From positions 1-32,333 of IMG/VR virus record IMGVR_UViG_3300036719_001945: a DNA stretch of 32,333 bases. One strand, given 5' to 3'. Each line of letters begins with the position of its first letter. The first letter of the stretch is position 1. Source of the stretch: a virus. Under the pieces are notes generated by a model, which was given only the letters and a program-made list of their open reading frames with translations, was not told where the DNA came from and searched no databases. Positions 12,108 through 30,538 of the stretch are shown here, one piece after another. A program made the translations under genes and the position numbers.

Positions 12108-13874
12108 TTAGCGGAAGATGGCCACGTTGAGGTAGTCTGTATCCACGTTTGTGTCCGTATTATTATCGCTTACGCCTACCCTAACTGAACCTGTTGCGTA
12201 GACGGCGGCCCAGCCCACGGCAGCGTTGGCGGAGGCAAGCGTACCTGCTCCGCCGGCCGTTACGACTGCGGCGTAGTTGGCGTCAGGCATAGCCGTAGTA
12301 AATGACACTAAGAAGTCGCCTACTCCTGATCCTGCATCCGTAACACTACTCACGTTTCCCGAAGCTCTGATGCTAGGGGTGGCACCTGCGTTGATGTTGG
12401 CCCAAGCGCGGCAGCCGTACGCGTTGGCGTTGGAGCCGTAACCACTATCGAATTGCAGAATGCCGGCAGTTGTAACGGCTAAGTAATCGACTTCGCTGCC
12501 TGCTATGAGCTTGCTTAGCTTGAAGTCGTGATCTGTGCCTGTTTTTTGGCCGAAGATCCATTCAGCCGTACCGCCAGTATTGTATAAACGATAGCGTGCT
12601 TGACCGGCTGTTGGAGGTACAACATATACGTTGCCGCTTGTGGCGTTGGCGGCAGCTAGTTGAATTTCTAGGCTGGTACTGGGAGAGGTTGTGCCTATGC
12701 CTACGCGGCCGGAGCTGTCGATGCGGAGGCGTTCAGCGGTTAAATCCCCTGCCGGCGACCCAGATCCACCTGACGAGGTGGAAAAAGTGATGAAGCTACT
12801 GTTGTTCGAGCTTAGATCGGTGGTTGATAATGTGATTCGTGCCAGGGCATTAGCTGTCCCAGTGGCAACCTGTAAGACTTGCGATACTGCATTAGCTTGT
12901 CCGCCCGTATAAGGTACGTTGTAAATTGCGCCGTTGGTTACGCCGTTCCCTTTTGCGGCTATGATGAGCTGTCCAGAACTGTCGATGCGGAGGCGTTCGG
13001 TTGTTGCCGTATTGGTGTAGAAAATAATGTTCCCAGCAGCAGAAATGTCCATTGCGGCTTGTGAGCCACCTACATCTCCCAAACGCAACGCAGATGCTGT
13101 TCCGACACTATCTGCTCCTCTGATAAAAGGAGAGTGAGTACCATCGGGCCTGGCAAGACTTAGAACGCCAAACGCACTTGTTGTATCAACTCTAAACTTT
13201 GCACTAACATCAAGGGTTGCTTGAGGATTATTTGTGCCGATGCCGACGGAGCCCGTTGTAGTAACGGTAAGGTAGTCGGATTCGCTGCCGGCAACCGATT
13301 TGCTTAGTTTGAAGTCGTGGTCCGTACTTGTCTTTTGGCCGAAGATCCACTCAGCTGTTGCGCCGCCGTTGAACAGGTGGAAGCGGGCCTGGCCAGCCGT
13401 ACTGGGGGCGATGCGGATGTTGCCAGCTGTCGCAGACCCAGCGGCTGCTGTTACATCTATAGCTGTGCCGGGCGTAGATGTACCTACACCGAAGCGGCCT
13501 GACGCATCAACAAATACTCGTCCAGCGCTGTTTGTCGCTATACCAACAGTATTAGCATTAGGCAGGTAAACACCGTTAGTGGGTGCGGTGTTAGCTGTAG
13601 GAACAAGAGCGGTGCCACTTACCGTGCCACCAATAGCGGCGCTGCCTGTCGTACTGAGGCCGGTAAGGGCGTAGGTAGAAGTCAGCTCGGCCCAGCTGCT
13701 GCCGTTCCACTTCTGCCAGCGGTTTGCTGAACTATTCCAGCGGATTGTGTTGGTGGGGATGTTTGTGCTGGTGGTGCCGTCGAACTGGAGCGCCAGGTCC
13801 GTGTCACGGTCCTTGACCTCCGTGACGAAGTTGGTGTAAGTGCTGGTGAGCAGGGGGTTTGACCAGTTGGCCAT
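12108..13874 (-). CDS. Tail fibre protein with internal repeats
   Basis: 588 residues. The N-terminus (LTSTYTNFVTEVKDRDTDLA, then RWNSSANRWQKWNGSSW) resembles attachment regions of phage fibres. The shaft holds the modules SVGIGTNNP, RLRIDSSGQL, RLRIDSSGRVGIGTTSP typical of trimeric fibres. It also has two copies of an about 80-residue unit built around AEWIFGQKT..DHDFKLSK..AGSE.DYL. A C-terminal beta domain (about 490-588) may bind the receptor. No S74 chaperone motif is visible, so no self-cleaving intramolecular chaperone is expected. It follows the J homologue by 3 bases (TAAGCAATG) and probably attaches to the tail tip. Confidence 0.88.
   Translation of the reverse strand: MANWSNPLLTSTYTNFVTEVKDRDTDLALQFDGTTSTNIPTNTIRWNSSANRWQKWNGSSWAELTSTYALTGLSTTGSAAIGGTVSGTALVPTANTAPTNGVYLPNANTVGIATNSAGRVFVDASGRFGVGTSTPGTAIDVTAAAGSATAGNIRIAPSTAGQARFHLFNGGATAEWIFGQKTSTDHDFKLSKSVAGSESDYLTVTTTGSVGIGTNNPQATLDVSAKFRVDTTSAFGVLSLARPDGTHSPFIRGADSVGTASALRLGDVGGSQAAMDISAAGNIIFYTNTATTERLRIDSSGQLIIAAKGNGVTNGAIYNVPYTGGQANAVSQVLQVATGTANALARITLSTTDLSSNNSSFITFSTSSGGSGSPAGDLTAERLRIDSSGRVGIGTTSPSTSLEIQLAAANATSGNVYVVPPTAGQARYRLYNTGGTAEWIFGQKTGTDHDFKLSKLIAGSEVDYLAVTTAGILQFDSGYGSNANAYGCRAWANINAGATPSIRASGNVSSVTDAGSGVGDFLVSFTTAMPDANYAAVVTAGGAGTLASANAAVGWAAVYATGSVRVGVSDNNTDTNVDTDYLNVAIFR
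12450..12700 (-). repeat. Tail fibre internal repeat, C-proximal copy
   Basis: Codes for one of two about 80-residue units sharing GQARYRLYN, AEWIFGQKT, DHDFKLSK and DYLAVTT. Boundaries are approximate. The partner copy is at about 13230-13460. Confidence 0.75.
13230..13460 (-). repeat. Tail fibre internal repeat, N-proximal copy
   Basis: Partner of the unit at about 12450-12700, with GQARFHLFN, AEWIFGQKT, DHDFKLSK and DYLTVTT. The DNA is diverged at synonymous sites, so the duplication is old or under diversifying selection. Boundaries are approximate. Confidence 0.75.
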
Positions 13875-19000: not shown

Positions 19001-20080
19001 TTAAGTGAAGAATGTACCGATGCCTGGGTAGGAGCCGAACGGAAGCTGGCCTCGGATACCGAAGCGTAATTTACAGCTGCTCAAGCGCTTACCGCACTCG
19101 TCCAGTGCTTGGGAGTTCACACCTACATCTTTAGCGTTAAAATAGACTAGGCTGTTTAGGTCTGGATAGGTGGCTAGGTAGTATGTGGCGTTGAATTGAC
19201 CGCCGGAATTACCGTTGCGGCCTTCCCATATGCCGTAGTTGCGAAAGTGTTGATTAGCGGTTGCGTTGGTATAAGCGGCAGCGACATCGGGATAGGTGGT
19301 GCGATAATAGGTGGCGTTAAATTGGCCAGTGCTATTTATCGAGCGACCTTCGCTGTAACCGAAGTCGGCATAGTGCTCACGCAATGGCCTAGCTTGAGGG
19401 CCGACTGGGTTGTAGCCGCACTCTGTCGATAGGTACTTCCACTGGCAGATGTTGCTTATACATTGCCTTTTGGGCGCACGTACACCGGCGAGGTCGAAGG
19501 CCGCTACAAGCTCGAACTCAACGAAATCACGAGTTTCTACGGTTTTGCGGTCTATGTAATAGATTTCGCGGGGGAACTCTGCGGTACTGTCTGGTGTTCC
19601 GTAAGGGTTAGTACCGCCTGGAAAGTTTACGGCGTCGATGTAGCGGGCTAGGGTGCGGATGCGCGTCACTTTGGCACCCTCTAAGCCGTCCGGTAGGCTA
19701 AGTAGCAATGCGGATATTGTGCCAAGTATGTTGCTTACGCGCAGCTTAGGGCGCGGTAATTGTCCGTTTCCTGTGTACTCAAACCCCTCAGCTTCTACAG
19801 GGAAGCGAGTGTAGCTATTGCCGGCCCAGACCACATCTTCCCCCCCAGAGCTGGATGCTTCGCTGTAACCCAAGATGTAAAAATCGTTAAAGGGGGAGTC
19901 CTCAAGCAGTAGGGAATCTGTTTCTGCCGAAGCTGCTGCACCAGTGGCGTTGAGGCTTGTGCCGGCGTGGAAGCGGTAAGTGCTAGCTACTCCGTGTTGT
20001 TTGAGGTTTAGTTCTAAGATGAACAGCTCTATTACTGCGCTGGGTGCAGCAGCCTGTAATGCAGCAATAGGTACAGCCAC
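19001..20080 (-). CDS. L: Minor tail protein, lambda L-like, with two insertions
   Basis: 359 residues from a GTG at 20080, against about 230 for lambda L. The core is clear: [52 protein letters not shown], and four C-terminal Cys in ISNICQW, STECGY (C221), LDECG (C329) and LSSCKLRFG. In lambda L such cysteines hold an iron-sulphur cluster. Two parts look inserted. Residues 49-79 come from a 94-nt cassette also present in another virion gene. About 85 extra residues between C221 and C329 carry two repeats of HYxxFGxxEGR / [14 protein letters not shown] type, found in secreted cyanobacterial proteins. The insertions probably project from the tail tip. Confidence 0.9.
19843..19936 (-). repeat. 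94-nt coding cassette, copy in the L homologue
   Basis: Identical to 29293-29386 at 92 of 94 positions and read in the same frame, giving [20 protein letters not shown] and the following [11 protein letters not shown]. Short inverted ends GCTTCG/CGAAGC are visible near both borders; no target duplication is evident. Both differences lie near the C-terminal end of the unit and change the amino acid (G to S, S to G). Confidence 0.9.
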
Positions 20081-20085
20081 AGCGC

Positions 20086-20421
20086 TTACACCTCAAACAC
20101 TTGACGGAATGTAGCCCTAATTTGGTTGTTATTGCAATTACTTAGTGTTACCTGCCACTCCTCACACACATACTTACCGGCAGAGCCTCGCGGTGGGGTC
20201 CAGTCGAAGTTTTCCACGCCGCCGCGTGCGTCTAAGAAGGCGACGATAAGATCGCGCTCTGTGTCAGTGCGGTTGGAGAAAACGAGCTGCCACTCCTTAG
20301 GGTTAGTGTTTAAGCCGAATCTTATCCGCTGCTCGTAACCATCGCCTGCCGCAAACTTACGCGCACGAGGTTTGCTTACCTCGGTGGGCTCGTAAGAGCT
20401 GACGTAGGTGAATGTAGCCAT
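20086..20421 (-). CDS. M: Minor tail protein, lambda M-like
   Basis: 111 residues, matching the lambda M length. Family features are the N-terminal strand followed by KPRARKFAAGDGYEQRIRFG, WQLVFSNRTDTERDLIVAFL, ENFDWTPPRG and the ending WQVTL...IRATFRQVFEV. It belongs to the tail-tip baseplate assembled on the tape measure. It lies ten bases after the tape measure stop. The start is in GCACTTATG without a Shine-Dalgarno sequence, the non-coupled start type of this genome. Confidence 0.9.
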   Translation of the reverse strand: MATFTYVSSYEPTEVSKPRARKFAAGDGYEQRIRFGLNTNPKEWQLVFSNRTDTERDLIVAFLDARGGVENFDWTPPRGSAGKYVCEEWQVTLSNCNNNQIRATFRQVFEV

Positions 20422-20430
20422 AAGTGCAGC

Positions 20431-23400
20431 TTAGCGGCTTAGTAGGCCGCCGGGGCGTTGCTGGCGTACCAGCTCCGCTTGGACGGCTTGGGAAATTACG
20501 CGGCCGAGTTGCTCGCCCTGACCGGCATTGCCCTGGACCGATGTGCCGCTTGCATCGACGCTCACGTTTACGGTAACTGGAGCACCTCCGCCTGCCTGCT
20601 CGACGCCGAGGCGCCCATTGGGGAGGCGGCGGAGCGGCATGATCGCTTCCGGTCCAGCCTCGCCCATAAGCCCGAGGCGGCCGGCGCCGCCATCAGCGAA
20701 TTTGAACATAGTCGGCTGATCGACGACACCGCCCATGGCGTAAGCGGTCACGTCGTGCTGGAACGCGCCACCCATGGCAAACGGGACGATGCCGTTGGCG
20801 GCATAGGCGTTGCCTAGGGCATTCAGCTTGATTCCACTGAACGCCAGTGGATTAAATCCGGCTTGGGTACTGCCAAACACAGAAGCACCAGATACCGGGC
20901 CAGCGCCAGAAAAACTGAATCCGCCGCTGCTGCCGCCGCCTATGGCGCCGATGATCTGCATAACGCTACGCAGAATTAGCTGCTGAATGATCATACGCGA
21001 TGTACTTTCCAGCACACTCTTGGCGAACTCTTGGAAATTCGCCTTACCCGTCGTGGTTAGGCTGAAGATGGCGTCCTCGACGCCCTTGATGCCGGTCTGG
21101 GCGAGCTGGGCCGTGGCCTCGCGCATGGTGCCGATCGACTGGACGTAGGCTTCGGCGCCCTCGCGTAGGCCGAGGCCGATGCGTTCGTCTTGGCGAGTGC
21201 GCATCGCCTTGTCGAAGGTCTCCTTTGCTGCCGCGGCGTCGCGCAATAAACGAGCTTGCTCGGCGTAGAACTCGTTTAGCTGGGCCAGGGAGTTCGTAAG
21301 TTCAGCGCGTGTAGCAGGGTCTTTTTCGTTGGCAATGAGTGTATTGTATTTGGCCTGGGCTTCGTTCTGTTTTTGGCGATTGCCGAGCAAGCGCTCTTCC
21401 AGCTCAATTAGCGCAGGGCTAACACCTTCCAAAGTAAGCCGGTTGCGGAGGGTTTGCAGCGCATTGCTGTCGCTGAGTTCTTTGTTCTGCTGCTTCAGCG
21501 CATCTGTGGCTCTTAGCGTGAATTGCTCAAATAGCGCAGCGCGTTCCTTAGATACGTTGGCTTCGATAAGTTGTTGCTGAGCTTCGGCCTGCGTTACGTC
21601 GAGACCCTCGATGACCGCACCACCGCTGGATTTGATTGCGCGATTCTGCTGGGTTGCGGCGCCTGCAGGCATCCGTGCCGATCCGCGCTGCAGATGCAAA
21701 AGCCGCATCGGGCCATCTTTTGTATTTATCTCTACTGCGTATCCGCCTGCACCTGTAAAACCTAGATCGCGCAGTAACGTGGCGCCATTTTTTAGTGTTA
21801 TGCCACTGCCTGAAGGTGTTCCAAAATCTATACCCGCGTGAAAAGTACGGCCGAATAAGCTCCTGGGACCGTAAGGGCTGGTAACTCCGTAGCTAGAAGG
21901 AGTGCGGCCATTAACACTTAAATAGCGGTCTGCATCTGCAGCTGTAATTCGACGACCATCGGCCCAGCGTGCGTCTAGGTGAGGGCCGGTGCTTTGCCCC
22001 GTGCTACCCGTTCTAGCAATGACACCCGTAGTGCCGCGCAGCATTGCTGCACCTTGGGCGTCAAAGGTGGCACGCACTGCAGCGCTTTGTTGCGTCTGCT
22101 TAGCCAGGCGCACGTCTTGAGCTGCACGGACACGGCGCTCCTCGATCTCGCGCAAGCTGCGCTGCAGATCCTCAAAGTTGCTTACGATGTCGCGTGCTGC
22201 ACCAGTTTCGCGCATGATGCGATTCTGTGCTTGGGCGTCGTCTAGGCGTTTCTGCAGCTCGTAGCGTTGGCGGTCCAGCTCGATTTGGTGCTGGAATACC
22301 CTGTCGGCTGCACGCAGCTGCTGGTCGAGCAGGGTGTTGGCCAGGCGCTGCTGTTCGGCGGCCGCGGCTTGGCGCTCTCTGTCGGCTTTGTCCTTGGCTG
22401 CCTTTTTCTCCTTTTCCTTATCTGCGGCGGGGGAGGGGAATACGGACGGGCTTTCTGCAGTGCTCTGTTGCGCCTGCGGAAGCTTAAATATAGGTGACAT
22501 TGCGGTAGCACCCGCCGCTATACCCTTTGTTACAGCCTTGCCTACATCTGCAATTCCAAACAGTTTGAGGCCCGCCAGCAAAGGATTGCTGTAGTTGATC
22601 ATGTTGCTGACGGTTTCGCGCCAGCGGCCTTTGATGAAGTCAAAAACGCTAGACCAGAACTTACCTACATTAGTGGCCACTATCTGCATGGTATCTCCCA
22701 GCCCTCCCACATCTATACCGATAGCCTTTAACGCTGTAGAGCTTATTGTTTGCAATCCTGTGAAGAAACTGCCAATACGAGTCCAGAACGCAGAGACATC
22801 GTTGGCGATACTATCCCAAAACGCTTTAGCAACCTGTAGGTATGCAGGCATTCCCGTGGCGAAGAAATCCCGTACAGGTGCTGTGAAATCCATGAACGCA
22901 TCACCGGCAGCACCGATTGCCTTAGCCACGCCCACAAACCCTTGTGCAGCAGCGACTACGGCAGGTGTAATGTCGGTTATAAATACGGCAAATGCGTTTT
23001 GCAAATCGGCACCCAGAGGTTGCAGAGCGCGTCCAACCTCTAGTTGCATGTTTTGCATTGCAACTGTCAAACGAGCGCCGGCTTCTTGGCTGGACTTGGC
23101 GATCTTGAGTGCCGTTTGTCCGTACTCAGTGCTGATTAGCTGCAGGAACTTCATTAGGTCGTTCAGACCTACTTGGCCCTCCTGGAGCGCCTTCTGTAGC
23201 TGAGGGCCGGTCATGCCGGCCGCCTTGGCGAAGAGGGTGAAGGTGCCGGGCAGTCGTTCAGCGATCTGGTTGAGTTCTTCGGCGCTGACCTTGCCCTTGG
23301 AGAAGACCTGCGTGAGTGCAAGGAGGGCGCCATCGGCCTGCTCGGCGTTACCGCCGGTGGCTTTCACTGCCTCGCTTACGGCACGGAACGCAAAAGCGGA

Positions 23401-25152
23401 GTCGCTTACGGTGCCACCGGCGCCCTTGACGGCGGCGCTCAAGCGGGTCATGCCTTGGATCGCAACCTCCTGGGGGATGTTGAGGTCGCGGGTTACCGAG
23501 GCGGCTGCGGACAAAGCCTGGCTGTAAGCGTCCTGCGAGCCGACGATTCCCCGCAGAGCGATCTGCAACTTGTCGATGCGGGCCGAGTAGTCGGTCACTG
23601 TGCCGAGCTGCTGGCGGAACATGCCGACCTGCGCACCAGCGGCTGCGCCAGCGAAAGCGCCGCCCACGCCGCCCAGGGCCAAGCCGCCGAGACCGCCGAT
23701 CAGGCCCTCTGGGCCGCCGAAGATACCACCACTAAGCGCTGCACCGACGCCCTGGGCGAGCTGCATCCCGCTTAGGCGGCGGCCTCGGCGCTTATCCGCG
23801 ATGCCCATACGCCTGTCAAAGTCGGCAAGCTGAGTATCAAACTCTTTCTTACGTAGTTGGCCTTCTAACTCAAGCCCTTCAAGAGCCTTGTCAATATAGA
23901 TTTGATTGTATTTAGCTTGTAATTCAGTGCGCTGTATGAATGCCCTCTCATAAATGTCCGTTACAGATCTTTGTGCAGATTCAACGGACTGCAGCGCCTG
24001 CGTAGCTGCTTCCGGGAATGGCTGCGGGCCTATGGGGCGGGCGTACGCGGCTTCGTCTACACGAATTCGCCCCGGTGTGTACGCACCAGCGGCAATCATG
24101 GCTCCTGTGTTGGGATCTCGGTAACCTCCAACGCCAGGTGCTAATGGTCCCTGCGTTGCGTAATAGGATTGGATGTCGGCGAGCTTGCCTGCTCTACGTT
24201 CTGCCCCTGCTTCAGCAATGCTGAGCTGTCTAAATGCTTCGGATGTGCCCATGACATCAGTGCGAAGCTGTCGCTGCACCTCCGCCATACGAATGGCTAC
24301 GTCTGTATATGTAGAGCTGCCTCTTGCTGTATTTAGCAAGCGTTCACTGAGTTCGGCAAGTTCTTGATTAAGCGCTGCGGTTGTATCCGGCATCGCGGAT
24401 AGGCGCGACGGATCCGCAAAACCTCCCATGTACGCAGGAGATTGAAAAGCCTCGTATGCGGCGATGACACCGGAACGTCCTGTCCTGCCTGACTGCGTAA
24501 TTTGAAGTAACTGAATTTGACGCAGTGTGTCTACAAACTTTTCAGCGTCATAGCGGACAGTTTGCAGACCGCGCTGAAGTATCGCAATCTGATTATTTAG
24601 TACGCTAGGAGTCGCACCTGCTTGCTGATTTAGCGCTAAGTTGAATCCTTGAGCCTCACTTTTTAACTTACCTAATTTTACCGTAACGTTATCAATATCC
24701 TTACCAAGCTGAATAAACGCTGACGAACCAGGGCGAGTTTCGCGCTGTAGTTGTTTTAATGCGTCTATCTGCCGTTGTAGCGAGTCAACATTTTGTCTAC
24801 CCGCGTTTGCATTATTGAGCAGTGCCTGACGCTGCCTTTCCAGCGCATCCGTAGACCCCCGCGATACTTCGTTAAGTCGGTTAAGGTCTTTTGTAAGTTG
24901 GGCGTAGGCACGACCACACGTATCTACCTGCGTGCGAAGACCTTGCAGAGCAGACGCAAGACCTTTATTTACAGCCTCAGTATTACCTGCTGCCTTGGCA
25001 AACTCAAATAAGCTGGTACGAGCTGCGTTAATATCGCGCTCGGACAAATTTGTGACTTTGCTTAAGTCACGAAACGAGCTGCGAATCTTATCTAAGCCTT
25101 CAAACTTTTCTAAACCTAGACGTACAACAATATCCTCAATCTGCTTAGCCAT
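20431..25152 (-). CDS. H: Tape measure protein, lambda H-like, with M23-like domain
   Basis: 1573 residues; its length should set the tail length. Residues 1-480 are coiled-coil rich. A Gly/Ala hydrophobic segment lies at about 480-515. The tape-measure N-terminal domain follows (YSARIDKLQIALRGIVGSQD to about 720). Coiled coils surround an M23-type peptidase region at 1045-1165, whose motifs are in permuted order: GSTGQSTGPHLD (H1058), then HAGIDFG (H1105, D1109), then LLHL (H1153). The lambda-type C-terminal signature comes at about 1339-1420 (ANFQEFAKSVLESTSRMIIQ), and GEAGPEAIMPLRRL ends the protein. It begins 8 bases inside the GT frame, after GGATAAGCAGG. Confidence 0.95.
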   Translation of the reverse strand: MAKQIEDIVVRLGLEKFEGLDKIRSSFRDLSKVTNLSERDINAARTSLFEFAKAAGNTEAVNKGLASALQGLRTQVDTCGRAYAQLTKDLNRLNEVSRGSTDALERQRQALLNNANAGRQNVDSLQRQIDALKQLQRETRPGSSAFIQLGKDIDNVTVKLGKLKSEAQGFNLALNQQAGATPSVLNNQIAILQRGLQTVRYDAEKFVDTLRQIQLLQITQSGRTGRSGVIAAYEAFQSPAYMGGFADPSRLSAMPDTTAALNQELAELSERLLNTARGSSTYTDVAIRMAEVQRQLRTDVMGTSEAFRQLSIAEAGAERRAGKLADIQSYYATQGPLAPGVGGYRDPNTGAMIAAGAYTPGRIRVDEAAYARPIGPQPFPEAATQALQSVESAQRSVTDIYERAFIQRTELQAKYNQIYIDKALEGLELEGQLRKKEFDTQLADFDRRMGIADKRRGRRLSGMQLAQGVGAALSGGIFGGPEGLIGGLGGLALGGVGGAFAGAAAGAQVGMFRQQLGTVTDYSARIDKLQIALRGIVGSQDAYSQALSAAASVTRDLNIPQEVAIQGMTRLSAAVKGAGGTVSDSAFAFRAVSEAVKATGGNAEQADGALLALTQVFSKGKVSAEELNQIAERLPGTFTLFAKAAGMTGPQLQKALQEGQVGLNDLMKFLQLISTEYGQTALKIAKSSQEAGARLTVAMQNMQLEVGRALQPLGADLQNAFAVFITDITPAVVAAAQGFVGVAKAIGAAGDAFMDFTAPVRDFFATGMPAYLQVAKAFWDSIANDVSAFWTRIGSFFTGLQTISSTALKAIGIDVGGLGDTMQIVATNVGKFWSSVFDFIKGRWRETVSNMINYSNPLLAGLKLFGIADVGKAVTKGIAAGATAMSPIFKLPQAQQSTAESPSVFPSPAADKEKEKKAAKDKADRERQAAAAEQQRLANTLLDQQLRAADRVFQHQIELDRQRYELQKRLDDAQAQNRIMRETGAARDIVSNFEDLQRSLREIEERRVRAAQDVRLAKQTQQSAAVRATFDAQGAAMLRGTTGVIARTGSTGQSTGPHLDARWADGRRITAADADRYLSVNGRTPSSYGVTSPYGPRSLFGRTFHAGIDFGTPSGSGITLKNGATLLRDLGFTGAGGYAVEINTKDGPMRLLHLQRGSARMPAGAATQQNRAIKSSGGAVIEGLDVTQAEAQQQLIEANVSKERAALFEQFTLRATDALKQQNKELSDSNALQTLRNRLTLEGVSPALIELEERLLGNRQKQNEAQAKYNTLIANEKDPATRAELTNSLAQLNEFYAEQARLLRDAAAAKETFDKAMRTRQDERIGLGLREGAEAYVQSIGTMREATAQLAQTGIKGVEDAIFSLTTTGKANFQEFAKSVLESTSRMIIQQLILRSVMQIIGAIGGGSSGGFSFSGAGPVSGASVFGSTQAGFNPLAFSGIKLNALGNAYAANGIVPFAMGGAFQHDVTAYAMGGVVDQPTMFKFADGGAGRLGLMGEAGPEAIMPLRRLPNGRLGVEQAGGGAPVTVNVSVDASGTSVQGNAGQGEQLGRVISQAVQAELVRQQRPGGLLSR

Positions 25153-25830
25153 CCTGCTTATCCTCCCCCTTAGCCAACGCGCTGAGAGCGGCAGTTTCCA
25201 TGATCTGCAGGCCCTCCAGCATGTCGAGGCGGTCGTCCACGCAGTATAGGTCCATCAGGCCGCCAGGCATCAGCAGCACCTCGTACTTCAAGCCGAGATA
25301 GCCCGCCATGGTGGTGTTCCACTGCGTCTGCATTCTTAGGAACATCATTACGATGTCCCAGTTTTCGTCCCAGACCTCGTAAGGGGCGGCGGGTTCTGGT
25401 TGCGCGTCTACGGGCAAGACTAAGCCGAACACCTTAGCGTCGTCTTCGGTCTTGTCCTCCTCGCGCTTAGTGCTTCCGCCTACCCAGAACTCCGCCGCAC
25501 CCTTCAGTTTCCCGACTTAGCGCCGTCGAAGGTCTCGGTGTAAGCCTTCAGGACACCGCGCACCCAGTAGGGGTCGTCGGCGAAGTCGGTGAGCGCTTCG
25601 ATGGAGAAGGGGAGGTCGGTGCCGTCTTCGTCGCTGATGCCGTTCCAGCCGAGCACTACGGCTTTGAGCAGGGGCAGATCGCCCTTCTCGCTGAGTTTGC
25701 CGAACTCCTTACGGCCCAGGCGCTTGAAAGTGATGTCGAAGGTGCTGGAATCGAACGTGCCGCCGTCAGCGGGTTCTTCGATGGTTACAGGCCACTTGAA
25801 GGTTTTGACCTTCTTGCGAACGAACGCCAT
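25145..25830 (-). CDS. Tail assembly chaperone GT, made by -1 frameshift
   Basis: The G frame (from 25830) reaches the heptamer G GGA AAC at 25513-25507, directly before its TGA. A -1 slip there continues with LKGAAEFWVGGSTKREEDKT and runs without a stop into the T frame, ending at 25145 for a product of 228 residues. T alone is open only from a GTG at 25432 with no obvious initiation signal, which supports synthesis as a fusion. The position between tail tube and tape measure and the slippery heptamer match lambda G/GT, which chaperones the tape measure during tail assembly. The coordinates include the one-base slip. Confidence 0.87.
25504..25830 (-). CDS. G: Tail assembly chaperone G
   Basis: 108 residues. 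The non-shifted product of the G/GT pair. KTFKWPVTIEEPADGGTFDS and FDITFKRLGRKEFGKL resemble the beta-rich N-terminal part of siphophage G-type chaperones, and WVRGVLKAYTETFDG lies near the end. It should be made in excess over GT and bind the tape measure and tube subunits. The ATG is in CAGCTTATG with no Shine-Dalgarno sequence. Confidence 0.88.
   Translation of the reverse strand: MAFVRKKVKTFKWPVTIEEPADGGTFDSSTFDITFKRLGRKEFGKLSEKGDLPLLKAVVLGWNGISDEDGTDLPFSIEALTDFADDPYWVRGVLKAYTETFDGAKSGN
25507..25513 (-). promoter_or_regulatory. -1 ribosomal frameshift site GGGAAAC
   Basis: On the - strand the frame reads TCG GGA AAC TGA. The heptamer G GGA AAC fits X XXY YYZ, and lambda uses GGGAAAG at the same place. 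The stop codon follows directly, which would stall ribosomes on the slip site. Confidence 0.87.
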
Positions 25831-25900
25831 AAGCTGTTCGGATGAGTTACTGGATGTACCGGCTTAGTGTAGATGCTTTTCGCGTAAGCGGCATCGCAGC

Positions 25901-25931
25901 AAAAACCCCCTAAGCGGCGTGGCTTAGGGGG
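25901..25931 (-). terminator. Factor-independent terminator after the tail tube gene
   Basis: On the - strand, CCCCCTAAGC (25931-25922) pairs perfectly with GCTTAGGGGG (25915-25906) across a 6-base loop and is followed by five T (25905-25901). This is the best terminator in the window. It probably trims transcription between the abundant capsid and tube genes and the assembly genes downstream. The rest of the 124-bp gap (25831-25954) shows no promoter I can recognise. Confidence 0.88.
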
Positions 25932-25954
25932 CTGGTGGTACGCGGCGGCGTGGC

Positions 25955-27118
25955 TCAGGCGTAGATAAGGCGGATCTCGTCGTTGCCGGTGGTGGAGGGC
26001 ACAGCGGTGTAGGGCAGGGCGAGCATGTGGATGCCGTCCTGGTCGGAGTAGCTGGGCGCTCCGATGTCCACGCGGTTGGACACCAGCGAGACGATGTTAC
26101 CGGCGGTCGTTCCATGGATGAAGGAGAGGTCACCCAAGGAGGCGTCGGTGAGGGAGGCGGTGAAGTAGTCCTTCTCTGCGATGGTGGGTGCTTCGATCGT
26201 TGCGGTGCCGGACACCGAGCGATCGGTGAGCAGCACTTCCTTGGTGCAGCCGACGAGTTCGCGGTAGATGATGCTGTTGCCGATGTCCATGGCAACCGAC
26301 TGGAGGCAGCCGGAGTAGGCGAGGAGGTTGAAGCCACCACTGTTGCCTGCCTTAAAGACGAGCGGGGTGGCTTGGTCGGCGTAGGTTACGGAAGGCGCGG
26401 CGGTGTCGGTGGGGGCGTTGTAGATGCCCGTCATCGTGAAGTCGAGGGTCGGGATCTGACCGACAGTGGTGTTCAGTGAGAACGTGCCGCGAGCGCCGGT
26501 GAGCTTGTGGAGAACCCCGTCGATGTTGTAGTAGAGGGTTACCGAGCTGAAAGCGCTGCTGACGGGGGTGTAGACGGTCTGGAGACCGATGCTGTAGACG
26601 CTGGTGTTGTCGGGGGTGACGTTGCCGGCGAGGGCGCGGAGGGAGGCGACGCGGGTGGAGCCCACGTAGCCGGTGACGAGCGCGACGGTGCCGCTGCCAG
26701 TGCCGCCGGTGATGCGGATGATCTGGTTCTTGTAGGCGTCGTTGGTGGCGCTGGCGCCGACGGCCAGCGTGATGCTGTTCAGGGCGCCCGCAGTGGCGGT
26801 GCCGGTGACGGCGGGACTGACGGCGGTCTCGGCGAGGCCGCAGGCTTTCAGGATCGAGCCGTAGCGGGGTGCGGTGCCGGCAGTGCCGCTTCCGGCCAGC
26901 TCGACACTGAAGGTGCATTCAACGCGAACGTTGGCGAGCAGCTGCTCGGATGCGCCCAGGTAAGGACGAACCAGGTCACGGTTAACGCTCTCGCTCTGGA
27001 CCGGCGTGATGTTGAGGTCACGGACCAGCACGGCGTCGGTGCCCAAGGGAGAGGGGTCGGAGCCGTAGGTGGCCTCGATCTCCGCCAGGAGGAGGCGCTT
27101 ACGAGTGAGGAGTGCCAT
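25955..27118 (-). CDS. V: Major tail tube protein, lambda V-like
   Basis: 387 residues. The opening (LLLAEIEATYGSDPSPLGTD, then VLVRDLNITPVQSESVNRDL) and a beta-rich body with YNIDGVLHKLTGARGTFSLN and GQIPTLDFTMTGIY are characteristic of siphophage tube subunits. An inserted region (about 105-170) could be an Ig-like or surface domain. It should polymerise into the hexameric tail tube. The position before G/GT and the tape measure supports this, as does the strong terminator downstream. The CTTA/TAAG word is rare here (4 in 1164 bp), unlike in most neighbours, as in the capsid gene. Confidence 0.9.
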   Translation of the reverse strand: MALLTRKRLLLAEIEATYGSDPSPLGTDAVLVRDLNITPVQSESVNRDLVRPYLGASEQLLANVRVECTFSVELAGSGTAGTAPRYGSILKACGLAETAVSPAVTGTATAGALNSITLAVGASATNDAYKNQIIRITGGTGSGTVALVTGYVGSTRVASLRALAGNVTPDNTSVYSIGLQTVYTPVSSAFSSVTLYYNIDGVLHKLTGARGTFSLNTTVGQIPTLDFTMTGIYNAPTDTAAPSVTYADQATPLVFKAGNSGGFNLLAYSGCLQSVAMDIGNSIIYRELVGCTKEVLLTDRSVSGTATIEAPTIAEKDYFTASLTDASLGDLSFIHGTTAGNIVSLVSNRVDIGAPSYSDQDGIHMLALPYTAVPSTTGNDEIRLIYA

Positions 27119-27124
27119 CGTGAA

Positions 27125-27346
27125 TTACCTGGGGGTGTCTGAATGCTGCGTACGCTGCACAAGCGTCCGCTGGCCGGTTGAGGAGTCGAGGGTGTACGAG
27201 CCGCCTTGGCCGCTGTACTCATCAATAAGCATAGGTGCAGCCGCTTCAACAGATTCTGCTGCGGCTTCTTGTTCCAGCTCCTGCAGACTGTCCTCAGCAA
27301 CTTCGCTGCTCAGGACATCCTCGGATGGTGCTGTAGTTCTTGCCAT
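27125..27346 (-). CDS. Small acidic protein, unknown function
   Basis: 73 residues, Glu/Ala/Ser-rich in the first half (SSEVAEDSLQELEQEAAAES) and likely disordered. A tyrosine-containing end (YSGQGGSYTLDSSTGQRTLV) follows. It lies between the tail completion candidate and the tube gene and starts in GCACTTATG. It might be a tail or connector accessory protein, but no motif supports a specific role. Confidence 0.6.
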   Translation of the reverse strand: MARTTAPSEDVLSSEVAEDSLQELEQEAAAESVEAAAPMLIDEYSGQGGSYTLDSSTGQRTLVQRTQHSDTPR

Positions 27347-27401
27347 AAGTGCTTGGGGGCTGCGGCGATTCTACGTGGCGGACATGGCACAGTTTGCGGG
27401 C

Positions 27402-27827
27402 TTAGCTGCTTAGCGTTGCCACTTGCGTGCGATAAAGGATGCGGAAGTTGTTGAAAATTACGCCTACGGGGGTGTCGGCAGCTTCTAAGGTAAATTCGGT
27501 GGGGCCTGGTTGGATGTCTATGCAGAGACCGCCTAAAGTGAGGTCGGCCATTAGTTTGCTGTGCAGCGACTCGATTATGGGATCGGCGGCTTGATCGGGT
27601 ACTGCATCGCGCACGATAATTACCACGCGCATGTTTAGTGTGTGGTCGAGCGTAGGCAGCGATGTGTTTTGCGTCGGCACGTTGCTTACGGGCTCGACGA
27701 TGAGCGCGGCGCTCTCGGCGCGTGCCACCGGCTCGACGCGGCTGCGGTAGATGCGCGTGCCAACGCCAACGGTGCCGACGAGCGTGGTGCGCACCGCGCT
27801 AAGGATTTGCTCGCGCTTGGTTGTCAT
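27402..27827 (-). CDS. Tail completion / minor tail protein candidate
   Basis: 141 residues. The helical start KREQILSAVRTTLVG, then RIYRSRVEPVARAESAALIV, a strand LNMRVVIIVRDAVPDQAADP, a helix SLHSKLMAD and the ending FNNFRILYRTQ follow the alpha/beta order of tail terminator-type proteins (lambda U/Z position). It lies just before the tube gene in the lambda-like order. The ATG of this gene shares its A with the TGA of the preceding one. Assignment by position and fold pattern, not by a diagnostic motif. Confidence 0.65.
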   Translation of the reverse strand: MTTKREQILSAVRTTLVGTVGVGTRIYRSRVEPVARAESAALIVEPVSNVPTQNTSLPTLDHTLNMRVVIIVRDAVPDQAADPIIESLHSKLMADLTLGGLCIDIQPGPTEFTLEAADTPVGVIFNNFRILYRTQVATLSS

Positions 27828-28444
27828 CAGCGCACCTCGGTGGCGACGAGACGGCCGCGACGAAAGCTGAGGTTCTCGGTGCCGCTGTGGTTGGCGATTC
27901 GCAGCGCCACTTCATCGCCGGAAGCCATGCTGATCATCCAGTTGGTGACGAGTTTGGCTTCGTCGCCAGCGGAGCCGGTGAAGGCGCGGCACTCCGTTTG
28001 GTCTATGGCAGTGCCGTTCTTGGCCAGCTTGATGCCTAGGACTTTGTTATTGCCGCTTGCGGTCTTGGCGTCGATACTACCATAAATTTGCATTAGACGA
28101 GTAGCACCGCTTGTGTTCTTTATGGCGAAGGTATCGGTGGTGCCGAGCGTCATGCCGCTTGCGGATGCGGTGTCGAAGATGCCGGTAAGTCCCGTGGTGA
28201 CGTAGACGTCTTGGGTGGTGATCGTGATCGTACCGGCGTCCATCTTGCTGGCCTGGCCGCGTACTAGGTCGGTGTCGGCAAAGCTGTAGTAGGGGAGGGC
28301 GTTCCAGGCGGTGGAGCCGGTGCCGACCTTGATTTTGCGGGTGTCGGACTCGATGCCCATCTCGCCGGAGAGGAGCGTGGGGTTGGCGGCGGTCCAGGCC
28401 GCTGCGGTGTCCGTGCGCAGTTGGATCTGGGCGATGGTGCTCAT
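27827..28444 (-). CDS. Virion protein with phage fibre N-terminal (Mtd-like) motif
   Basis: 205 residues. The first 55 (AQIQLRTDTAAAWTAANPTL, then GEMGIESDTRKIKVGTGSTA, then WNALPYY) form the IQxRxDTAAxWxxxNPxLxxGExG module found at the N-terminus of many tail fibres and tropism proteins. The rest is a beta-rich domain. It could be a decoration or a short fibre. It starts four bases inside the stop of the head-tail joining candidate. Confidence 0.75.
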   Translation of the reverse strand: MSTIAQIQLRTDTAAAWTAANPTLLSGEMGIESDTRKIKVGTGSTAWNALPYYSFADTDLVRGQASKMDAGTITITTQDVYVTTGLTGIFDTASASGMTLGTTDTFAIKNTSGATRLMQIYGSIDAKTASGNNKVLGIKLAKNGTAIDQTECRAFTGSAGDEAKLVTNWMISMASGDEVALRIANHSGTENLSFRRGRLVATEVR

Positions 28445-28875
28445 GCTGTACCCCCACTGATGTCGTTGCCATCAATGTAAGTGGTGGAGGCGGCACCGCC
28501 GTCGATCAGTGGGTTGAGCTGATCTAGGCCGAGGTCGTCGATCGAGACCACAGCGCCGTTAGCGCTAATGGGGGTGGTGGAGGTGGTATGCGTGGTTTCT
28601 AGGTCGCGTTGTAGGGATAGTTGCGTGAACACCCCATCGCTAATTAGGACGTTGGCGCGTACGGTATAGGCGGCACCGTTTACGGTAAGTTTTGAGCCGT
28701 AGAGTAGGTCGCCGAACTTAGCGGATTCGCAAGTAAGTGTGTATTCGGTGCTGATTACTTGACCATCGACGATTAGTTCGCTGGGCATGTCAAGGATGCC
28801 TAGGCCGGATGCGGTGCCTGCCACAACGCTTACGCCGAAGTCGGCTAAGTAGAGGCCGGTGTCTTCGGTGATCAC
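28441..28875 (-). CDS. Head-tail joining protein candidate
   Basis: 144 residues from a GTG at 28875 that overlaps the preceding TGA (GTGA). The frame is open further upstream, but that part lies in the previous gene. FGDLLYGSKLTVNGAAYTVR, then SDGVFTQLSLQRD resembles the small beta-barrel of head-tail attachment proteins (lambda FII type: G-D-x-V-x-I-x-G-x-x-Y-x-V). The C-terminal 45 residues (ISANGAVVSIDDLGLDQLNP and following) look like a flexible extension. Its position between capsid and tail genes is as expected. Confidence 0.55.
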   Translation of the reverse strand: MITEDTGLYLADFGVSVVAGTASGLGILDMPSELIVDGQVISTEYTLTCESAKFGDLLYGSKLTVNGAAYTVRANVLISDGVFTQLSLQRDLETTHTTSTTPISANGAVVSIDDLGLDQLNPLIDGGAASTTYIDGNDISGGTA

Positions 28876-29168
28876 GCGAATACCCTCACCGGATGCCCCG
28901 GCGCAACAACGTACTGATCCCACCCATCAGGCAGCTCACCGATGTAGTTGACGTGCCAGCCGTTCAGCAGCACGGGTGGGGTGATGACTTCACCGGTGTC
29001 GGGGTCAAAGGTGCCGCCTGTGTAGATGGGGCCGATGACATCGAGGGCGTGGGTGTGGCTGGCGGTGAGCACCACGGTGTCGCCGTCTTCATTGGTGGTG
29101 GTAAGGCCAGCAGCATCCAGGGCAGCCATGCCGGTGGATTCGTCGGGGAAGCGGATGTAGTGGGTCAT
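28872..29168 (-). CDS. Conserved phage protein of unknown function
   Basis: 98 residues. YIRFPDESTGMAALDAAGLT at the start, HALDVIGPIYTGGTFDPDTG in the middle and LNGWHVNYIGELPDGWDQYV near the end match a small family I recognise by sight from phage structural regions (RFPDExTG..., GWHVN..G.LP), but its function is unknown to me. It overlaps both neighbours by four bases. Confidence 0.7.
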   Translation of the reverse strand: MTHYIRFPDESTGMAALDAAGLTTTNEDGDTVVLTASHTHALDVIGPIYTGGTFDPDTGEVITPPVLLNGWHVNYIGELPDGWDQYVVAPGHPVRVFA

Positions 29169-30538
29169 TGCGTCAGTGCCACAAGCGTGCTGTTGGGGAG
29201 GCGCTGTGGGAAGAAGGTGAGGCGGCGGATGTGAACGTTGCCTGGAGCGGTACCGCTAACATCTACGCCAATTCCAAGTCGATCAACTCCCACCCCAGAG
29301 CTGGATGCTTCGCCGTAACTCAAGATGTAAAAATCGTTAAAGGGGGAGTCCTCAAGCAGTAGGGAATCTGTTTCTGCCGAAGCTGCGCTCGGCATTGTTC
29401 CAGAAGAATCTGATTGTGGCGCTCCTCCGTTTTCTGCAAATCCAAAATCATTTGCTTTTGTTGCTAAAGCAGCTCTGTACTCAACCCCTGCGGCATAAGC
29501 GCCTTGGTTAAAAGTTGCTTGCGATACGCTGGCATCTGTTACATCGTAAACACGATTAACGCCGCCTTGAGCGCGTAACCATATAATGTTTGTTGCAGCG
29601 GAGTTGATAAATACGAATACTCTGGCGCCGCCTGTATTGGGGCTTTGGGGAAAGCTGTACCTTGCAAACATCGTCCCCTCATCCTGCCGATACCACGAAC
29701 TAAACGCACTGCCCGTGATGCTGGCAACGTCCGCGCTGCGGGTGGCTGCGGCGGTGGTGGTGGGGATATAGCTGGTGGGGAAGGCTCCGGCTTCTAGTTG
29801 GGCGCCCCAGAGGTAAAGGTTTGTGTTGGCTGTGTTGTTGACAGTATCTCTGAGGTAGATGCCAAGACTGCTAGAAGCCGCAAGTGGCGTAAATACCATT
29901 GTGCAGCGATACCAGCCGTTAGGATACGGAGTAATGATGCCTGATCCGCCATTTGCCGAAGATGTAATTGTTCCGGTTGATAAATTGAATATCACAAACG
30001 CTCCACCAAATGCGGCAAAAGCCCTAAGGCCTAGCAATGTTTCGGTTCCGGCTTTGGCAAAAACGCTAAAAGAATACGAAACAGCAGAAAGTGTAACCGC
30101 TTGCGAAGCAAAGTGAGGATTACTGGTTCCATCGGCAGTGATTGTATCCGCCGTTGTTGATCCATCCGGGGCGGCAATGCTGTTTGCCGTAATCGTCCTT
30201 GATCCAGCAGAGCTGTTCCAACTCGCATTATCAAACTCCTCACTCCGCACCAGGAGATTCGTCCTCGCCTCCTCCACCATCAGGCCCAGGCTTTCGCCGG
30301 TTGTGGGGTTGTGGTCGAAGCGGGGTTCGTTAGTCGTCGCCGTCTTGATCAGTCCGTCGCTGCCGACGTAGGTGGCGCTGCTGGCGCGGGTGAAGGTGAC
30401 TAGGGGGCCGAGGTTTTTGGTGGCGGCGAAGTTGAGGTCGAGGGACGCGCCACCGAATAGGCCGCTGCCGATCAGGCCAGAGTTGATGCTCTGCTCCAGG
30501 CCGCCGGATTGGAGCTGGGTGCCAAGGCGTTCAGCCAT
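29165..30538 (-). CDS. Large beta-rich virion protein with TRASSATY module and 94-nt cassette
   Basis: 457 residues. Residues about 45-95 hold the widespread phage module VTFTRASSATYVGSDGLIKT, EPRFDHNPTTGESLGLMVEE, ARTNLL. A carbohydrate-binding-like jelly roll follows (GWYRCTMVFTPLAASSSLGI, LYLWGAQLEAGAFPTSYIPT). A second lectin-like domain starts near residue 280 (FARYSFPQ) and ends HIRRLTFFPQRL. Residues 385-415 are encoded by the cassette repeated in the L homologue and look inserted between SGTMPS and VDRLGIG. It sits among head genes, so it may decorate the capsid or a head fibre and bind surface glycans. Confidence 0.75.
   Translation of the reverse strand: MAERLGTQLQSGGLEQSINSGLIGSGLFGGASLDLNFAATKNLGPLVTFTRASSATYVGSDGLIKTATTNEPRFDHNPTTGESLGLMVEEARTNLLVRSEEFDNASWNSSAGSRTITANSIAAPDGSTTADTITADGTSNPHFASQAVTLSAVSYSFSVFAKAGTETLLGLRAFAAFGGAFVIFNLSTGTITSSANGGSGIITPYPNGWYRCTMVFTPLAASSSLGIYLRDTVNNTANTNLYLWGAQLEAGAFPTSYIPTTTAAATRSADVASITGSAFSSWYRQDEGTMFARYSFPQSPNTGGARVFVFINSAATNIIWLRAQGGVNRVYDVTDASVSQATFNQGAYAAGVEYRAALATKANDFGFAENGGAPQSDSSGTMPSAASAETDSLLLEDSPFNDFYILSYGEASSSGVGVDRLGIGVDVSGTAPGNVHIRRLTFFPQRLPNSTLVALTQ
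29293..29386 (-). repeat. 94-nt coding cassette, copy in the TRASSATY protein
   Basis: Same frame and 92/94 identical to 19843-19936, giving [20 protein letters not shown] and ILSYGEASSSG. Flanking DNA is unrelated on both sides. Confidence 0.9.

Follow-up and report, generated by a model that had tools for sequence, protein, structure and literature searches.

How did a stretch of some 94 nucleotides come to stand, almost letter for letter and in the same reading frame, in two unrelated virion genes of one genome? The question is raised by the IMG/VR virus record IMGVR_UViG_3300036719_001945, a freshwater cyanobacterial virus whose complete 32,333-base record is referred to here as the window. 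The genes concerned are a homologue of the phage minor tail protein L (359 aa; 19001..20080, minus strand; PF05100, E 1.4e-49; phrog_18) and a TRASSATY-domain tail protein (457 aa; 29165..30538, minus strand; phrog_5939, E 2.9e-88), and the segment, hereafter the cassette, lies at 19843-19936 in the former and at 29293-29386 in the latter. The two copies are identical at 92 of 94 positions, when about 1e-43 such pairs are expected by chance in the window, and with both genes on the minus strand both copies are in codon phase 0, so that the description given in an earlier note on this DNA, of a 94-nt segment common to both genes in the same frame, stands. The two differences are non-synonymous and close to the C-terminal end of the peptide, also in agreement with that note. 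The peptide of the TRASSATY copy reads ...FYILSYGEASSSG, and no Pfam domain was found over the cassette by profile comparison.

In total, 80 L loci and 80 TRASSATY loci, some with only part of the gene, were fetched from IMG/VR, and the segment was present in three and two of them, respectively. The comparison of homologues with and without the cassette, proposed in the earlier note, accordingly returned 77 of the 80 L loci and 78 of the 80 TRASSATY loci with no copy. A native domain of the L or TRASSATY proteins is ruled out, because so few loci are filled in either gene.

That the segment had been inserted twice was likewise borne out, by empty sites in near-identical relatives and by differing junctions. 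Eight L loci at 89% protein identity were without the segment, the difference being mostly the insert itself. In the empty L allele of L029, GGTGCG is joined to GTGGTCTGG, and the same flanks are separated by 102 nt in L009; by comparison with L029, the net insert in the window L gene is 102 nt (34 codons, residues 49-82; 19835..19936, minus strand). This junction is the less certain of the two, as other empty alleles have GAG instead of GCG there. In the empty TRASSATY allele of L188, ATGCCGAGC is joined to GTTGATCGACTTGG, and at that point, between two codons, the window has an insert of 99 nt (33 codons, residues 385-417; 29288..29386, minus strand). With the inserts removed, the window flanks matched the empty alleles at 143/148 (L, against L029) and 142/148 positions (TRASSATY, against L188), i.e. 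96-97%. No target-site duplication was present at the exact empty sites of either gene, and no loss of native sequence was visible at the insertion point of the TRASSATY gene relative to L188. When L was aligned by profile with a solved pyocin protein, a gap of 3 residues fell near the site of the L insert, a natural variation in length at that place.

Searching for the cassette in other phage genomes and metagenomes, a check named in the earlier note, yielded further IMG/VR copies, including those in a third gene: ten contigs were matched by a 20-mer of the cassette and a further two by a peptide pattern. The third gene, MTP2, encodes a 417-aa second tail tube paralogue (PF18906) and is located directly downstream of the tube gene. 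In seven contigs (L005, L006, L008, L010, L013, L015 and L020) the cassette was found near the C-terminus of MTP2, with 95.7-96.8% DNA identity to the window L copy, and MTP2 of L112 and L116 contained a diverged cassette, AAPAETESLLLEESMFNDLYILGYGEVASGSG, with 78% DNA identity. Within MTP2 the cassette occupies a loop immediately ahead of the final strand; in other tube proteins a short STxGNDE turn takes this place. It was present in every MTP2 gene for which the contig extends to the 3′-end. The main tail tube protein, tried as the third site, was ruled out, the carrier being the second paralogue downstream of the main tube gene.

In the diverged MTP2 pair, the synonymous divergence (dS) was 0.62-0.65 in the cassette and 0.71 in the remainder of the gene, and as the two values are close, the cassette has been resident in MTP2 since before the lineages split. 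The non-synonymous divergence (dN) of the cassette was about 0.15, giving a dN/dS of about 0.2, and the synonymous excess within it was significant (Fisher p 0.003 for the MTP2 pair, and 0.0003 for the window L copy versus L112). The peptide in MTP2 is under purifying selection. Judged by this divergence, MTP2 is the oldest traceable home of the cassette. The L and TRASSATY copies, being near-identical to the MTP2 copies, are therefore young. Furthermore, the identity of the TRASSATY copy to MTP2 continues past the 94-nt core for another 5 nt (TGGGA), which the L copy does not share; on account of this extra identity, the source of the TRASSATY copy was probably a donor of MTP2 type rather than L. 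A gene-conversion patch between L and TRASSATY, one of the origins considered in the earlier note, is unlikely for the same reason, the 5 nt being shared with MTP2 only.

The distribution of the three sites was compared among genomes with the L allele of the window (ca. 96% identity outside the insert). Two of these, G007 and G011, combined a cassette-bearing MTP2 with an empty L, and G013 had an empty L on a contig whose first bases are the MTP2 stop codon. MTP2 was absent and L filled in the window and in G009; G001 and G004, also without MTP2, had the TRASSATY copy. Among the relatives compared by gene order, no MTP2-bearing genome had a filled L. The apparent complementarity of MTP2 and filled L is a pattern, not proof. 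Two cassette copies per genome were the maximum, and all copies were in virion genes, on the sense strand and in phase 0.

From these observations we lean, with slightly more confidence than doubt, to an explanation in which the cassette is a selected virion peptide module of 31-34 residues, probably displayed at the surface, which illegitimate recombination copied out of a donor of MTP2 type. Its original carrier would have been the MTP2 loop that precedes the last strand. In phages lacking MTP2, a copy some 100 nt long would then have reached loops of the L and TRASSATY proteins at least twice, independently, through illegitimate (homology-poor) recombination with a donor that had MTP2; where it arrived in phase in a tolerant loop, it would have been retained, the displayed peptide being useful. 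The MTP2-type donor and the independence of the events are what we infer from details of the sequences. Display at the surface is more conjectural, and so is the function: the peptide may be a short binding element that makes a weak contact with the host cell surface, or one that binds a virion partner common to its carriers. With regard to skipping in RNA or translation, raised in the earlier note, codon-phase insertion together with purifying selection suggests that the peptide is translated, and its sequence would suit a small beta-hairpin. The common docking or decoration site suggested in the earlier note is possible, and close to this explanation.

Several points weigh against such a module. 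The AlphaFold models of MTP2 and L, with mean predicted local distance difference test (pLDDT) values of 50 and 39, were too poor to place the cassette, to show it exposed on the virion or to confirm a hairpin, and no solved homologue of the tube protein was found by sequence search. The young L and TRASSATY copies differ by two non-synonymous and zero synonymous changes, with no sign of constraint there. The complementary pattern comprises about five informative genomes for L, which are closely related and often fragmentary. Moreover, G024, G025, G026, G032 and others, with other tail-tip alleles, were without MTP2 and without the cassette, and the peptide is therefore not universally needed.

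Sequences that resemble the cassette, or its mode of occurrence, were found at the TRASSATY locus and in tube proteins. In L111, L112 and L283, a short gene consists of the same N-terminus (some 25 residues, MAERLxxQLQxxGLQQSL) and a cassette-like tail, ETEEDLLLPASIFADYYILGSLDAGTGAMWVLAA, which matched the cassette at 44% over a stretch of 25 residues (E 0.075 against a small database); the short-gene tails of L113 and L114 were more diverged. A relationship between this tail and the cassette is probable, not proven. The locus itself (30463-30538 in the window; L111:1071-1262, L113, L283) is modular, in that the N-terminus of about 25 residues is followed by either the TRASSATY domain or the cassette-like 35-aa tail. 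In L129-L131, which belong to another lineage, the second tube paralogue (L129:4189-5451, L131:4189-5451) has an insert as well, but the inserted sequence is not that of the cassette (DALLTEDSFDLLYEDSERIYLDP, about 30 residues) and lies in another loop; no second copy of it was found in their own records. The window L protein in turn has a second in-frame insert at residues 227-310 (19151-19402, minus strand), with two repeats of the type HYxxxGxxEGR, which has no Pfam match and is absent from 226-residue L homologues. This second insert suggests that L is a general carrier of add-on modules.

Such modularity raises the possibility, which we hold to be real and nevertheless doubtful, that the cassette is one allele in a family of interchangeable modules, placed at C-termini or in loops of adhesion sites (the tails of the short gene and of TRASSATY proteins, the tube inserts) and recombined between phages for a change of host range, as in exchange of antigen or receptor modules. 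The joining of one N-terminus to alternative domains at the TRASSATY locus, the different insert of the L129-L131 tube paralogues and the repeat insert of L would all fit an exchange of this kind, but the short-gene tail is only weakly similar to the cassette.

The promiscuous immunoglobulin (Ig)-like domains of tailed phages, reportedly described by Fraser et al. in 2006, offer a known parallel. Phages are known to have promiscuous display domains, large ones, with a use that is so far only proposed. Like these, the cassette, which would likewise be displayed on the virion, is an add-on in structural proteins, including tail tube proteins, and absent from close homologues, and three virion genes were found both with and without it. 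Unlike the Ig-like domains, which have about 80-100 residues, the cassette has 31-34 and no Pfam match, sits in internal loops, is found in one phage group only, and has a second copy in the same genome; its 33 residues are too short for an Ig fold, and no Ig-like domain profile matched. For the Ig-like domains, weak binding to the cell surface has been proposed (PMC8718954).

The main rival to the selected module is a neutral accident, in which a piece of MTP2 was copied into L and TRASSATY by recombination errors and is tolerated in exposed loops, functionless there. The youth and rarity of the L and TRASSATY copies, the lack of synonymous bias in the differences between them, and the many relatives without any cassette are all as expected of such copying. 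Against this stand the conservation of the MTP2 peptide under purifying selection, the capture of the segment twice in one genome with almost the same ends, and the confinement of filled L to MTP2-less genomes, and we regard an accident of this kind as rather unlikely.

Less probable still is a selfish miniature mobile element that codes for a peptide and is moved by a transposase in trans, in the manner of the Rickettsia palindromic elements (RPEs). One segment of about 100 nt in several unrelated genes, with clean in-frame junctions, recalls the RPEs, which are in-frame insertions of 105-146 bp (PMC2229807), a length near that of the cassette; both are present in frame in unrelated protein genes and encode some 30-50 residues, and the cassette, in phase 0 with net inserts of 99 and 102 nt, shares with RPEs and miniature inverted-repeat transposable elements the in-frame insertion. 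Yet terminal repeats, target-site duplication and dispersed or intergenic copies were lacking. The short inverted ends GCTTCG/CGAAGC noted earlier proved to be internal, not terminal, and not conserved, since L009 and the MTP2 copies of L005 type have CGAGGC. The cassette RNA folded worse than shuffled sequences (z = +1.8 and +1.6), with no hairpin. Unlike the RPEs, the cassette has no palindrome, is restricted to virion genes, with no more than two copies per genome, and is constrained at the peptide level by purifying selection. With neither conserved inverted repeat, target-site duplication and hairpin nor copies found outside virion genes, the mobile mini-element of the earlier note could not be upheld, and the cassette is not filed with the Rickettsia-type palindromic elements. 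PARCELs are tandem arrays of 25-residue units with dyad symmetry, distributed in many taxa (PMC2996958). They share with the cassette a short peptide-coding unit spread between genes of surface-exposed proteins, whereas the cassette is single, non-repeated, non-palindromic and limited to one phage clade.

Searches beyond the three genes agreed with this restriction. Scans of IMG/VR and of GTDB genome contigs gave no copies outside the L, TRASSATY and MTP2 genes and the probable short-gene relative, and a wide degenerate pattern returned no further IMG/VR family members other than the short-gene tails. A host origin of the cassette was rejected, as a degenerate pattern run against 84,980 bacterial and archaeal GTDB species gave chance matches only, in unrelated bacteria. 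DNA and protein searches of cultured phages with the cassette alone found nothing, a result in which the low-complexity filter of BLAST may hide the leucine-rich peptide. The cultured-phage matches to the MTP2 and L proteins either end before the cassette or cover it incompletely, the TRASSATY matches not having been inspected residue-wise. A literature search gave no link to the wider class of LLLEDG-type motifs, and no relation to it is claimed.

That metagenome assembly put one sequence into several genes through collapsed or chimeric contigs, as might be suspected from related contigs that are mostly metagenome fragments, is next to negligible and for practical purposes refuted, because each kind of junction was found in more than one IMG/VR record, the sample numbers being different (the L site in L009, L011 and L012, the TRASSATY site in L004 and L007, and the MTP2 site in seven records) and the copies are distinguished by site-specific substitutions.

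With respect to the rest of the window, its structural genes resemble those of three Synechococcus siphoviruses, S-CBS1, S-CBS3 and S-LBS1, with partial blastn matches of 64-79% identity, and the neighbours of the TRASSATY gene are head-completion and connector genes. The tail tube protein (MTP; 25955..27118, minus strand; PF18906), whose paralogue MTP2 bears the cassette in relatives, is itself without it. On the basis of gene order in relatives, the MTP2 site corresponds in the window to an MTP2-less junction at 25831..25954, where a hairpin resembling an intrinsic terminator was found between the tube gene and the next gene (25901-25931, minus strand). At this junction, MTP2 is present or absent as a whole gene among phages that are 95-99% identical in the adjoining tube protein, with the hairpin in the MTP2-less allele. 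Elsewhere, a 150-nt direct repeat with 71% identity (12462-12611 and 13251-13400) was observed inside one gene of 588 aa downstream of the tail-tip genes.

Returning to the selected module copied from MTP2, a more far-reaching version, which we put forward tentatively and with more doubt than belief, is that this phage group depends on the peptide as an independent functional unit, a natural tag for any exposed virion loop that was re-seated in other virion proteins after the loss of MTP2, selection keeping the peptide and not the protein. With its exact empty sites, traceable older home and complementary distribution, the cassette offers a minimal system in which selection on a displayed peptide, rather than on its carrier protein, becomes testable. 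The insertion sites would also mark three natural loops of phage virion proteins that can accept an extra peptide, and the cassette shows relocation of coding DNA in phase without a visible transposon.

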